Of a DNA stretch of 35,591 nucleotides, positions 27,574 through 35,591 are shown piece after piece (position 1 is the first letter of the stretch; each line of letters starts with the position of its first letter). A program made the translations under genes and the position numbers. The DNA lies in NCBI GenBank assembly GCA_027859175.1, contig JAQIBG010000318.1, forward strand, positions 1-35,591, in the 5' to 3' direction. The DNA is from Planctomycetota bacterium (GTDB taxonomy: Bacteria; Planctomycetota; UBA11346). The notes under the pieces are model-generated. The model was not told the origin of the DNA and made no database searches. It saw only the letters and a program-made list of their open reading frames with translations.

Positions 27574-29820
27574 TCAGCCATCGCCAAGCGGCGCCGCCCC
27601 TGGCGTTGGTTGCCGCACCATGACCTCGTCGAGGCTGCCGCGGAAATACAAACCGCCATTGGCGATCCGCCCCAGGTAGCTAGCCCCACCGGTCTTGAAG
27701 TCGGTGCGGATGCTCGGGTCCACCGTGCGATCCACGCCATCAACCACAATCTGGGCGATGCCAGCTACGCGATCGAAGCTGACCTCGATCAGATGCCACT
27801 GCCCTGGCACAATGGCGCCCGCATCGCTTAGTGCCGAATCACCTTCGCTACCGTTGCCGGTCTCAAAAATAACGCGTCCGTCTTCAGTTCTCCAGCCGTT
27901 GATAAACAACTTGTAGCCATCTTCGCGATGCCCGCCGCGGCCATTGGCCACAACCGTTTGCATGTTGCGGGCCGAAGGATCCATCTTGACCCAGGCGCTT
28001 ATCGTAGCGCGATCACCCAGATCCATGGCGCCGAGGGCAACGGCATCGTTAACGCCGTCGAGCGCAAAGGCGCCGGCGCCCTCAATCGCATCAGTGGTGA
28101 ACCCAGCCCCATTCATGAGCGTGCCGTCATTGACGCCAGCCAGGTCCTTGGCGTTGGTGTCACCTGGCCAGTAGTGCACCAGACTGTCTGCCGGCTCTGG
28201 ATCCACTTTACCGGCCACGATCGACAACTGATCGATTTGCCCGCTGAAATAATAGCTGCCACTGGTCATACGGCCGGTGTCAGTAACGGCCTCACTGCGA
28301 TAATCGTTACGAATCACACTCGTGATCGTTTCATCGTGACCATCAACCAGGATCCGCGCCTCGCCCTGAGCACGATCAAGCAGCAACTGAATCTGATGCC
28401 ACTGCCCCGGCACAATCACGCCAGGACCGGTCATGGCGCTGGCATTGGCCGTGCCGTTACCGGTCTCGAAGATGACCGATCCATCAACGGTCTTCCAGTG
28501 GTTGATCATCAACTTGTAGCCATTCTGCGACGCGCCACCGGCACAGTTTGCGAGCACTGTTTGAATATTGTTGTGGCCAGGATCAACCCGCAAACGAACT
28601 TCAATCGTTGCGACTTCCGGCAAGCGCAACACGCCCATGCCAGCGTAGTCATTGACGCCATCAAGCAGCAAGGATCCAGCCGAGAGTCGGGCCCCATTTT
28701 TGAGATAGGCATCGTTTCCGCCAACGTGGTCTTTGGCATCGGTGTCGTACAGCCACAGGTGCTCCAGTCCGGCTTGGTCTGGCTCTGGAGTCGGGTCCGG
28801 ATCCGGTGTCGTTAGGCTCGGCTGATGCAGCATCATGTTTTCAATGATGTCTTTCAGGCTGTCGCGATCCATGCGCTCGGTCAGATAGCGCTGATCGGCA
28901 TCGGGGCTCGAGCGCCAGATGTTGACGCCGCTTAACGCCACCTCGTTGTGCCCAGTCGATCGCTCATTCCAATAGGGCCCCAAGCCGCGCACCGCATACA
29001 TCACGGCAGTTTGGTCATAGGTTGGCCAATCTTCTATTGGGCTCGGCGTGCGATTAGCCCACGACGGCGGATTCTGAAAGAAGAACGCATAGCCTGCCTT
29101 GACCGGGCTCGTATCCGGCAACTCAGCCACGCGCTGGCCAGCCTTGAGATTAAAGCCGATTTCAAAGCCACTAAAGGTCACCGGAACGGGCATGTTATTA
29201 ACCACATACTGCGCCAAGCCAGGATCACCCTTAAAGTTGCTTTCGCCACCCATCGAAACCGCAGAGGGATAACGCCCACCCAGTATCACAAAACGCTGCA
29301 CCTTGCGGCGAACCAGTTCAATACCGGTGAGAGCGCTGTATTGGTCGGGGCCAGACTGCAGCAAGCTGCGGATATTATACAGCTTGCCAACGGTCACGAA
29401 GGTCACGCTGCCGTCAGCGCTTGCGGCCAAGGTTTGACGATACAGATCGCACACCAAGGGCGCATTCACCGTGTCCTGGTCATGCGCAAAGGCATTGCTG
29501 ATCGCCACATCATAAGTATTCGGCGTCGTCAATGCGCCACCCGGGTGACCAATAGGAATATGCGGACGCTGGAAGTAAGTATTCACCACGTCCATCGCGC
29601 CCACACTCCCGGTGGTGGCGGCATAGGTGCCCATCGCCAGAATTTCGCACTCACCAGCGTCGGCCAAGGCATGCAACACCACCATGGCGCCGAGGTCGTC
29701 GATATCATCGCCGAGGTCGGTATCGAAAATCAGCTGCGCTGGTTCGGCAGCCGTGGCCCAACAGCACCAGCCCATGAGCAGGGCAATCGGCACCAGCGCT
29801 AGGTTCGAAATACACATCAT
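27574..29820 (-). CDS. Secreted nucleoside hydrolase-like protein with two LamG domains
   Basis: The 748-residue protein starts with a signal peptide (NLALVPIALLMGWCCWATAA) and has AGGAG 5 nt upstream of the ATG. Residues 27-320 form a nucleoside hydrolase-type fold with the calcium-binding motif DTDLGDDIDD at 33-42 and FVILGGRYP further on. After a Pro/Asp linker (TPDPDPTPEPDQ) come two LamG repeats, about 345-545 and 555-745, that are similar to each other (GYKLMINHWKTVDG and GYKLFINGWRTEDG). Classical nucleoside hydrolases are cytoplasmic and 300-350 residues long, so this exported, LamG-bearing type may act on a glycoside with a ribose-like moiety. It is divergent from the ECF/FecR pair and ends in a strong terminator. 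Confidence 0.83.
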   Translation of the reverse strand: MMCISNLALVPIALLMGWCCWATAAEPAQLIFDTDLGDDIDDLGAMVVLHALADAGECEILAMGTYAATTGSVGAMDVVNTYFQRPHIPIGHPGGALTTPNTYDVAISNAFAHDQDTVNAPLVCDLYRQTLAASADGSVTFVTVGKLYNIRSLLQSGPDQYSALTGIELVRRKVQRFVILGGRYPSAVSMGGESNFKGDPGLAQYVVNNMPVPVTFSGFEIGFNLKAGQRVAELPDTSPVKAGYAFFFQNPPSWANRTPSPIEDWPTYDQTAVMYAVRGLGPYWNERSTGHNEVALSGVNIWRSSPDADQRYLTERMDRDSLKDIIENMMLHQPSLTTPDPDPTPEPDQAGLEHLWLYDTDAKDHVGGNDAYLKNGARLSAGSLLLDGVNDYAGMGVLRLPEVATIEVRLRVDPGHNNIQTVLANCAGGASQNGYKLMINHWKTVDGSVIFETGNGTANASAMTGPGVIVPGQWHQIQLLLDRAQGEARILVDGHDETITSVIRNDYRSEAVTDTGRMTSGSYYFSGQIDQLSIVAGKVDPEPADSLVHYWPGDTNAKDLAGVNDGTLMNGAGFTTDAIEGAGAFALDGVNDAVALGAMDLGDRATISAWVKMDPSARNMQTVVANGRGGHREDGYKLFINGWRTEDGRVIFETGNGSEGDSALSDAGAIVPGQWHLIEVSFDRVAGIAQIVVDGVDRTVDPSIRTDFKTGGASYLGRIANGGLYFRGSLDEVMVRQPTPGAAPLGDG

Positions 29821-31954: not shown

Positions 31955-32506
31955 TCAGTCAGCTATCGCACTAGCGTTGCTCGCGATGTATTCGTGCACA
32001 GTTGTACAGGCGGCGTTCACATCTTCGGCCAACTGCTGATCAAGAGCTGTGTTGCCGGCCTGGAGTTGGCCAGAGCGCTGCATCTCGGCGACCTGATCAA
32101 GGCGTTGCGCGAGAGACTCGGCGCCGCAAACGCGATACGCTTCAGCCACCTCATCGAGGGTCGGCAACTGCAGCGCCAGGGCGTCTTCGGACATCGCATA
32201 GCGATACACGCCCATATGCCGCCACTGCAAATCAAAGGCCAGGATTGCAGCAACACTGCGCTTGGGCCCCGACAGGGTCCGCCACGAACCATCGCCCCCC
32301 TCGATCATCGACCCGAGATGACGTTGCAGGAGGATGTCGCCATCGCGCGTATTTGGCAGCGCCTGCAGGGCCGCCACGTCAAGCCGATGCCGGGCGAGTT
32401 CGGCCGGCACCCGCGTCCAGGCGATCATCGCGCCCACAGCAAACACGAGCACAAGCACTGCCGTGCCCACAAGCCATGGCCGCCGTGCCTCATCTGCGCC
32501 CTTCAT
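31955..32506 (-). CDS. DMP19-like membrane-anchored protein (copy 2)
   Basis: The 183-residue protein has one N-terminal TM segment (about 11-31, [19 protein letters not shown]) followed by [18 protein letters not shown] and a helical domain ([43 protein letters not shown]) resembling DMP19/DUF4375 folds. It is a diverged paralogue of the protein at 34190-34729, which has VPDEVARHRL and a similar YRRLGA region. The start overlaps the stop of the pilin gene as ATGA, so the two are coupled and probably work together at the inner membrane. The assignment to DMP19 is tentative. Confidence 0.6.
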
Positions 32507-33195
32507 CTGGCATTCCAGGGCGGCTCATTAAGGGCCATCGGCACATCAAGCGGGCGAATGCTTCCGGCGTGGCCATCACAGTACACCATGTTGACGCGGC
32601 CGCGATGCCGTGCCAAGGCCTTGTTGCCAACTGAATAGCGTGTCACCGCTGGATTCGGTTGAATCTCGCGTGCATAGGCATCGCCTGCCAACCACACTTC
32701 GGTCGCATGGTGGCGCGTGCCCTGCCCTTGGCCGTCGATGGTTGCGTTCAGGCCATAGTCACCCCAGGTACCATTATTGAAATTGAACATGCTGGCCGTG
32801 GGCCCAGAAGGCATCGCCGCCGGACAAGCAAAGGGCCCGAGCACACCAGATGGCGGCCGCGCGAGTGCATTGTACCAATCGCGCCGCTGCGCTTCACTGG
32901 GTGCGCAGTCGAGATATTGACCAGCGGCCAGACTCCAAATGTAGGGTGCCTTGCCCCCGAAGCTTGCCCTGGGATACACCCCCCCCTCATCGGCGTAGGC
33001 CAACACGCCCATACCCACCTGGCGTAGATTATTCAGGCACACCATCCCGCGCGCCGACTCTCGGGCCATATTGATCGCCGGCAGCAACAGGCTCGCCAGG
33101 ATCGCAATGATCGAGATCACTACGAGTAGTTCGATGAGGGTAAAGCCGCCGCTGCGCTGAGGCCGCGTCATGTACCTCGCAGTGTCCTGAGTCAT
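32503..33195 (-). CDS. Pseudopilin with H-X9-DG motif (copy 2)
   Basis: The 230-residue protein has a short leader ending in SGG, the site [22 protein letters not shown], and the conserved [18 protein letters not shown] segment. Near the end it has [12 protein letters not shown], an exact H-X9-DG motif, and a [11 protein letters not shown] tail. The start at 33195 has a GGTGAGAGG purine run just upstream; 33171 (MTRPQ) is an alternative with a close GAGG. The open frame extends to 33291 through a G9 tract and a hydrophobic 28-residue peptide that is probably not part of the pilin. A G8 tract lies inside the gene at codons for DEGGV (minus strand of 32979-32986). It is coupled to the DMP19-like gene. 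Confidence 0.88.
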
Positions 33196-33203
33196 GCCTC
33201 TCA

Positions 33204-33212
33204 CCCCCCCCC
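33204..33212. repeat. C9/G9 homopolymer just upstream of the pilin start
   Basis: Nine consecutive C on the plus strand (G9 on the coding strand) lie 9-17 nt before the ATG at 33195, next to the ribosome-binding site. Such a tract is a plausible slippage site. The long upstream frame (to 33291) reads through it in frame with the pilin. Confidence 0.6.
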
Positions 33213-33213
33213 T

Positions 33214-33453
33214 GTCGTACAGCACTCGCATTGCTGCAAGCATGTGTGCACCACAAACCGCGGCGATCAGCACATAGGCTAGCAACCGCATAGTGAATTT
33301 CCACCGCCGATTGACCCCAATACCAACGCGATATCGGCGTCATCATCACCACCTGATATACCGGTAGCGATCATCGCCATTGGCGAAATCACTGCGGTAA
33401 CCCGCTCCTGCCATGGTCCAGCCAGCGGCACCCGCTCACGAATCGAACGCAAA
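33214..33453 (-). pseudogene. Scar of a large secreted enzyme gene: deleted and frameshifted 3' end
   Basis: 33214-33400 is about 93% identical by eye to 34810-34995, the end of and sequence after the intact gene at 34941-35591 (11 substitutions and 1 indel in about 187 bp). 33401-33453 is about 87% identical to 35471-35523, the VPLAGQWQAR region of that gene. The two blocks are directly joined, so 475 bp are missing relative to the intact copy. As 475 is not a multiple of three, the join shifts the frame: RERVPLAGPWQER is followed by out-of-frame sequence. Homology stops at about 33454, just before the stop codon of the neighbouring pilin gene (33467). Confidence 0.75.
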
Positions 33454-33466
33454 TATCGAGCACCTG

Positions 33467-34126
33467 CTACTGTTCCTTTTTCCACGGTGGCGCATGCGGC
33501 GCCAAAGTCACATCGAGAGGAGCAAGGCCCTCTACGTGACCATCGAAGAAGCAGGCATTTATACGCCCAGCATGCCGCGCCAGCATGGTACCAGCATAAA
33601 AGCGCGTCCGTGTCGGAGAGTACACAATGCCGCGTCCAGAATTATCAGCCAACATCACGATTCCCGTCGCTGGACCAATGCTACCGATCGGGATACCGCG
33701 CCAATTGGTCCATACATGTTGCCAATGATTGTAGCCATAGTCTGACCACTCACCGTTCGCCCTTCGGTAATATTGACTCGCAGTGGGTCCGCTGGGTGAA
33801 GCCGATGGGCAGCCCCACACCCCGAGAACGCCATTGGATGCACGTTCACCAACTCCCGGGAGATTTCCAGGTGGCAATACCTGTGCAACTGCATTCATCC
33901 AATGCCACGGAGCACCCCACGGGAAAACGTCATTCATAACAACACCCTCGTTGTCATCGATATACACCAAGGTGGCCATGCCAATTTGTCGCAAATTGTT
34001 TTTGCACTGCATCGAGCGGGCCTGCTCTCGAGCCATGCCGATAGCGGGCAGTAATAAGGCTGCCAGCATAGCGATGATCGAAATCACCACCAACAGTTCG
34101 ATCAGGGTAAATCCACGTCGCATCAT
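33467..34126 (-). CDS. Pseudopilin with H-X9-DG motif (copy 1)
   Basis: The 219-residue protein begins [20 protein letters not shown], with GGAGG 6 nt before the ATG at 34126, which decides the start. Features: [51 protein letters not shown] (exact H-X9-DG) and the end [15 protein letters not shown]. It is a clear paralogue of the pilin at 32503-33195 (shared NNLRQ, GPTAS, HAGR/HRGR and PPW blocks). The pre-protein leader is very short, as common in this family. It follows the DMP19-like gene (34190-34729) by 63 bp and lies next to the gene scar. Confidence 0.9.
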
Positions 34127-34189
34127 AATTGACCTCCTCAATACCACGCCGTCGCAAACGCGTCGAACTTCGGTTGGTAATAAAAGAAT

Positions 34190-34729
34190 CTACTCACCGG
34201 TTGCCACTTCATCTGCATGCTCGGCCACCCATGCACTGCGCACCCGCTGTGCGACTGGAAAGGCCTTGAGCCACTCTTGATCCAATTCGGCGGCGGCAGT
34301 CACCGACTGATCTGTAGCCAACTGCATCGCAGCCCGCTCCAGCACCTCTGCTGCGCCTACAGCGCCCAATCTGCGGTAGGAATCAGCCGCCTCAGCAAAA
34401 GTGGGGACATCAGCCATCAAAGCCTGGAACTGCACATACGAAGCCAATGACTGCGCACGTACCATGCGCTCAAATGTGAGCACCGCCGCCAAAGAACGAC
34501 ATGGTTCGGCGAGGCTACGCCAACCGCCTTCGACTGTTACCAGGCTCCCCAGATGGAGATGCAATAGAGCATCGGATGATTCATCGAGTCGCAAATCCCG
34601 CACCTGGCTGGAGCTTAAGCGGTGCCGCGCCACCTCATCCGGAACGCTCGGCCAACGAAGGATGACCAGCGCAAGGGCGATGAGGGCCATCACGGCAATG
34701 CCAATCCCCTTTCGCGTCCCTGTTTCCAT
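34190..34729 (-). CDS. DMP19-like membrane-anchored protein (copy 1)
   Basis: The 179-residue protein starts METGTRKGIGIAVMALIALA, with AGGAG 5 nt before the ATG at 34729; the open frame upstream to 34849 lies in the duplicated intergenic region and is not coding. One TM segment (about 8-25) is followed by VPDEVARHRL and a helical domain (VLTFERMVRAQSLASYVQFQ, FAEAADSYRRLGAVGAAEVL). It is a paralogue of the protein at 31955-32506. The gene lies upstream of a pilin gene on the same strand, the opposite gene order to copy 2. The function is unknown; the domain resembles DMP19/DUF4375. Confidence 0.62.
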   Translation of the reverse strand: METGTRKGIGIAVMALIALALVILRWPSVPDEVARHRLSSSQVRDLRLDESSDALLHLHLGSLVTVEGGWRSLAEPCRSLAAVLTFERMVRAQSLASYVQFQALMADVPTFAEAADSYRRLGAVGAAEVLERAAMQLATDQSVTAAAELDQEWLKAFPVAQRVRSAWVAEHADEVATGE

Positions 34730-34799: not shown

Positions 34800-34886
34800 C
34801 TAACCCTCAGTCGTACACCACTCGCATTGCTGCAAGATGTGTGCACCACAAACCGCGACTATCAGCCCATAAGCCAGCAACCGCAT
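34800..34886 (-). CDS. Possible small hydrophobic ORF, 28 residues, duplicated in copy 2
   Basis: The frame encodes MRLLAYGLIVAVCGAHILQQ plus eight residues. The duplicated copy at 33291 encodes [18 protein letters not shown] before a 1-nt insertion shifts it. Of the five differences in the shared codons, three are silent third-position changes, which hints at selection for this frame. It looks like a signal or TM peptide. GGTGGA is about 9 nt upstream. The evidence is weak because the segment is short. Confidence 0.3.
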   Translation of the reverse strand: MRLLAYGLIVAVCGAHILQQCEWCTTEG

Positions 34887-34995
34887 AGTACATTTCCACC
34901 GCCGATTGACCCCAATAGCAACGCGGTATCGGCGTCATCATCACCACCTGATATACCGGTAGGGATCATCGCCATTGGCGAAATCACTGCGGTAA
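34810..34995. repeat. Duplicated segment, copy 1 (partner 33214-33400)
   Basis: About 186 bp here match 33214-33400 in the same orientation at roughly 93% identity by eye. The segment spans the last codons of the large secreted enzyme gene and the sequence upstream of the DMP19-like gene. Gene content on both sides (pilin and DMP19-like paralogues) shows that a larger block was duplicated. Confidence 0.85.
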
Positions 34996-35591
34996 TCGGC
35001 ATGATAATAGCCACCACCACCCGATTCAGCGCGTGATGCTGGATACACCACCATCTCGCCAGGCTTGGCATTGAAGCCACCAGCCAGGAAATTGTTGAAC
35101 ACCCGCACCGCGAGTTGATTAGCCCCGGCCCGTACCTGCTCGCCAGGGATGCGATAGCGACGCGCCACGTTCCACCCCTCGCCAGAGCCTATCTCAATAC
35201 CGTTCCAGAACGTGATGTCGGCATCGTCAACCGCACCCATTTCGATCACCAGATCCTGACCAGCCCAGGCCTCGGGAATCATCACCTCGCGCCGGAACAC
35301 CGCCTCGCCATAGCGCGATTCACCAAAACCAGACCACATGCCGGGCACGCTCGCCGCACTCCAGGCGTCGCCATCCAGTGCTTCGGTAACGGCGGCCAGG
35401 GCAGCTGATGAAATCGGCGTAATCGCTGGTTTGTTGGCAATGTCACGCGTCCCCTCAACCAAGTCAAAAGCCCGCGCCTGCCATTGTCCAGCTAGCGGCA
35501 CCCGATCACGAGCCGAGCGCAAAGCCGGAAGCGCCGCATCGAGGGTAAAGCTGCCACCGAGATTGGCGATCAACTGGGTCACGACGCGCGT
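34941..35591 (-). CDS. Large secreted enzyme, C-terminal part (GH2/sialate O-acetylesterase-type beta-sandwich)
   Basis: The frame is open to the window end (35591), so only the last 216 or so codons are seen. A jelly-roll domain shows LAGQWQARAF, VPGMWSGFGESRYGEAVFRREV, and the hallmark MGAVDDADITFWNGIEIG, GWNVARRYRIPGEQVRAGANQLAVRVFN. The pattern DDADxTxxNGxxIG ... GWNxxRxYxIP ... GxNxxAVRV is known from sialate O-acetylesterases and from the sugar-binding domains of GH2 enzymes; I cannot choose between them without the catalytic part. The protein ends YRYIRW. A shortened, frameshifted copy of its 3' end lies at 33214-33453. Confidence 0.7.
   Translation of the reverse strand, partial: TRVVTQLIANLGGSFTLDAALPALRSARDRVPLAGQWQARAFDLVEGTRDIANKPAITPISSAALAAVTEALDGDAWSAASVPGMWSGFGESRYGEAVFRREVMIPEAWAGQDLVIEMGAVDDADITFWNGIEIGSGEGWNVARRYRIPGEQVRAGANQLAVRVFNNFLAGGFNAKPGEMVVYPASRAESGGGGYYHADYRSDFANGDDPYRYIRW

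Follow-up and report, generated by a model that had tools for sequence, protein, structure and literature searches.

A probable non-functional relic of a duplicated GH2-type enzyme gene between two pilin-like genes of a Planctomycetota bacterium

Results

Gene organization around the relic

The window, a stretch of 35,591 nucleotides, is an entire contig (C302) of a draft genome that consists of 495 contigs, is 87.7% complete and is the sole representative of its genus among those compared. The genes considered here are all encoded on the minus strand and follow one another as E1, S2, P2, relic, P1 and S1. E1 (34941-35591) comprises the 3' 216 codons of an intact GH2-type enzyme gene (Glyco_hydro_2_N) that runs off the contig, and is followed by a spacer (34804-34940) that is duplicated in the relic. 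S2 (34190-34729) encodes a small DMP19-like protein and P2 (33467-34126) a DUF1559/N-methyl prepilin-like protein. On the other side of the relic, P1 (32503-33171) is again a DUF1559/N-methyl prepilin-like gene, and S1 (31955-32506), a paralogue of S2 (about 33% amino acid identity), overlaps the P1 stop codon. The prepilin-like type has 84 matches in this genome. No further members of the small family of S1 and S2 turned up in it.

DMP19-like genes are paired with DUF1559 pilin-like genes in two genera: in a relative from another genus (L053, 7897-9356) and in the window (31955-34729), where the pair is present twice with opposite internal order. Elsewhere in the window, a 70% direct repeat (27737-27920 and 28340-28523) inside a nucleoside hydrolase/laminin-G-like gene probably represents two duplicated Laminin_G_3 domains.

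The GH2-type enzyme gene

The 5' part of the enzyme gene was found on another contig of the same genome, C486 (L065). At its end (35549-35591) the window overlaps positions 1-43 of C486, with 42 of the 43 bases identical and the reading frame preserved. Codons 1 to 1,452 of the enzyme, with its GH2 domains, are located on C486, and a LacI-type regulator gene lies ahead of them. If the contigs do adjoin each other, the whole enzyme measures about 1,650 amino acids; the single mismatch in the overlap would also allow for strain variation or a second copy.

GH2-type enzymes of this bacterial family share a conserved C-terminal motif, D-x-PYRY-x-RW-stop, located at 34941-34970 in the window. Further sites were detected in the same genome (C10, 21003-21032; C127, 8687-8716; C403, 13486-13515) and in the relative G012 (C172, 9998-10027; C114, 45896-45925). 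With four occurrences of the pattern in this genome and two in one of 44 relatives, the motif is too sparse for a general sorting signal, a role that we rejected; its distribution suggests a trait of a single enzyme subfamily. On contig C403 (L033, 12136-13386), transposase-like reading frames that presumably resemble an ISL3-type element lie closely downstream of a further paralogue of the GH2 enzyme.

Extent and composition of the relic

Between P2 and P1 lies a 246-base sequence (33208-33453, minus strand) that was shown by repeat search and pairwise alignment to consist of two joined pieces of the 3' end of the GH2-type gene and its downstream spacer. It is separated from the P2 stop codon by 13 bp and takes up most of the gap between the two pilin-like genes. 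The initial annotation had described two joined blocks matching 34810-34995 and 35471-35523; both were recovered, with the left edge moved by 6 bp from 33214 to 33208. The larger block (33208-33400) matches 34804-34995 with 92.7% identity (E about 1e-77), the alignment containing one 1-base indel, an extra base near 33241. The upstream block (33401-33453) matches 35471-35523 with 86.8% identity (46/53; E about 1e-11). Both matches are far beyond chance, and support the earlier claim that at least the 3' end of the enzyme gene was duplicated.

Within the larger block, positions 33346-33400 correspond to the C-terminal codons YRSDFANGDDRYRYIRW and the stop codon of the enzyme, with 54 of 55 bases identical to 34941-34995. 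The remainder (33208-33345) corresponds to the spacer downstream of the enzyme gene and is about 91% identical to 34804-34940, the indel included in this part. The copied source region was thus the 3' end of the GH2-type gene plus about 137 bp of spacer. In the relic and its surroundings no piece of the first approximately 1,460 codons of the enzyme, which make up about 88% of the gene, was detected.

No other copy of the relic or of the E1 tail was found in the whole genome beyond these two places, and none in 58 relatives, and a mobile element or dispersed repeat was rejected on this ground. When close relatives were sought among genome contigs, the matches were two distant Planctomycetota only, and a literature search returned nothing on this locus.

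The junction and the missing 475 bp

The two blocks, which are collinear with E1, abut at 33400/33401, a junction known from the draft assembly alone, and positions 34996-35470 of the E1 region are missing between them. No microhomology is visible at the junction, where a divergence of about 8% could hide a few bases. The missing segment (minus strand), which E1 and its homologues contain, holds the match to a second sugar-binding domain. Homologues of the enzyme on contig C10 and in G012 and G018, which belong to another genus of the family, align to E1 continuously across the segment. Because these paralogues and homologues retain it, the segment is evidently ancestral and was lost from the relic; the opposite event, an insertion of 475 bp into E1, is ruled out on the same ground.

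A length of 475 bp is not a multiple of three (475 mod 3 = 1), and the enzyme sequence is not kept through the relic in any frame; the 5' part is absent and the deletion changes the frame. The locus had initially been annotated as an out-of-frame deletion in a duplicated gene. The 475-bp loss is real; the relic, however, is a 5'-truncated fragment and not an otherwise whole gene. Because the start of the gene is lacking as well, the effect of the deletion on the frame is moot, and its importance cannot be demonstrated. A whole second enzyme gene may or may not once have stood at this site.

Divergence of the relic and its relative age

The relic differs from the E1 region by 20 substitutions in 245 positions (about 8%, half of them transitions) and the one 1-base indel, so that the changes are mostly substitutions, as noted previously. 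Coding and spacer parts diverged alike (8/108 versus 12/137; Fisher p = 0.82), in a comparison of two sequences with 20 substitutions in total. In the upstream block five of the seven changes alter amino acids. Together with the loss of the frame at the junction, this pattern would fit neutral decay. The C-terminal block shows slightly higher conservation than the upstream block (1/55 versus 7/53 changed; p = 0.03, uncorrected), a departure from even divergence that counts weakly against a neutral relic.

P1 and P2 share 53.6% nucleotide identity with only 8 of 44 four-fold sites alike, and S1 and S2 share 44.8%; judged from these values both pairs are old, with synonymous sites apparently saturated. 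Since the relic spacer retains 91% identity to its source, the relic is much younger than the pilin pair, in line with what had been proposed initially. The copy of the enzyme tail would accordingly postdate the P1/P2 and S1/S2 splits, or would have been kept alike by conversion until recently. A tandem duplication of the whole unit at one age was rejected on account of the low identities of the two gene pairs compared with about 92% for the relic, and of the swapped gene order.

Search for a function of the relic

No consensus sites for promoters or terminators were matched in the relic or in the shared spacer, and the predicted fold of the spacer did not exceed that of shuffled sequences (z -0.1 to -1.1). 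On these results we rejected the idea that the spacer acts as a promoter, a terminator or a regulatory RNA. The reading frame of P1 is open back to an ATG at 33291 inside the relic (33171-33291); it was opened by the 1-base insertion and is a candidate for a hydrophobic N-terminal extension.

Discussion

The sequence at 33208-33453 is very probably a non-functional relic of a piece of a GH2-type enzyme gene that was duplicated, truncated and internally deleted. Long after the P1/P2 and S1/S2 pairs had split, a stretch of 721 bp or more, comprising the 3' end of E1 and its spacer (34803-35523 or a close copy), would have been duplicated to a site about 1.3 kb away, between P2 and P1. The copy may then have lost 475 internal bp by illegitimate deletion, and it would have lost, or never had, everything upstream of about codon 1,460. 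Afterwards the relic would have drifted by about 8% substitutions, presumably without function. The position of the relic directly upstream of P1 counts against this explanation, as it could serve there as a P1 leader.

An older origin, which we consider unlikely, would start from tandem units that each comprised the enzyme gene, its spacer and an S/P pair; conversion would have kept enzyme and spacer alike until the second enzyme gene was deleted, leaving the relic as the last remnant. The layout E1-spacer-S2-P2 followed by relic-spacer-P1-S1 does resemble two units, and the 92% similarity of enzyme and spacer is far above that of the P and S pairs. However, S and P are arranged differently in the two units, conversion has to be added as a further process, and additional enzyme pieces were not detected around the relic.

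There is a rather small chance that template switching produced both blocks in a single step, through a replication-based insertion of two pieces that are not adjacent and without any subsequent deletion of 475 bp. The junction without visible microhomology and a 5' edge as sharp as the internal junction are consistent with such an event, but it is more complex than copying followed by deletion and its outcome in sequence is identical. Stepwise reduction of a whole second enzyme gene, a one-step template switch and copying followed by deletion are inseparable without relatives; the last is the simplest.

That the relic is kept as a leader region of P1, as promoter, 5' UTR or N-terminal extension, is very unlikely. 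It makes up most of the gap upstream of P1, and the hydrophobic frame from 33291 runs in frame into P1. Yet conservation of the spacer does not exceed that of the dead coding part, no promoter was matched, and from the starts at 33195 or 33171, which are better placed, P1 has a normal prepilin leader. The more specific idea that P1 has taken over the duplicated tail of the enzyme gene as its upstream region, with the inserted base opening an extension fused in frame to the pilin-like protein, is highly improbable judging from the reading frames; if true, a new P1 leader would have been made from a dead piece of a gene.

An assembly artefact, in which the junction joins reads of different copies or strains, is hardly to be expected: the genome is a fragmented and incomplete draft, the contig ends 68 bp beyond the E1 repeat block and the overlap with C486 has its mismatch, but the divergence from E1 is spread over both blocks and the flanking genes are intact and unique, so that the relic is not a misplaced copy of E1 itself.

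Taken as the remains of a partial copy, the relic reflects ordinary duplication and decay; it warns annotators against calling a gene here and has little wider weight. It offers a clean, relatively datable case of partial gene duplication and decay in a cluster of carbohydrate-enzyme and pilin-like genes.

With its Glyco_hydro_2, Glyco_hydro_2_N and Glyco_hydro_2_C matches and the LacI-type gene on C486, the source gene is like other GH2 enzymes with an upstream LacI-type regulator; it differs from GH2 enzymes in its length, in the second sugar-binding domain at the C-terminus and in the subfamily-specific D-x-PYRY-x-RW motif. The relic itself is homologous to an identified intact gene and its coding capacity is destroyed, as in truncated pseudogenes. 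Like bacterial truncated pseudogenes that arose by partial duplication and illegitimate deletion, it is a partial copy of a neighbouring gene with an internal deletion and a lost frame, its substitutions look neutral and no function needs to be invoked. There is no essential difference from these pseudogenes; the relic lies at some distance from its source, not directly beside it.
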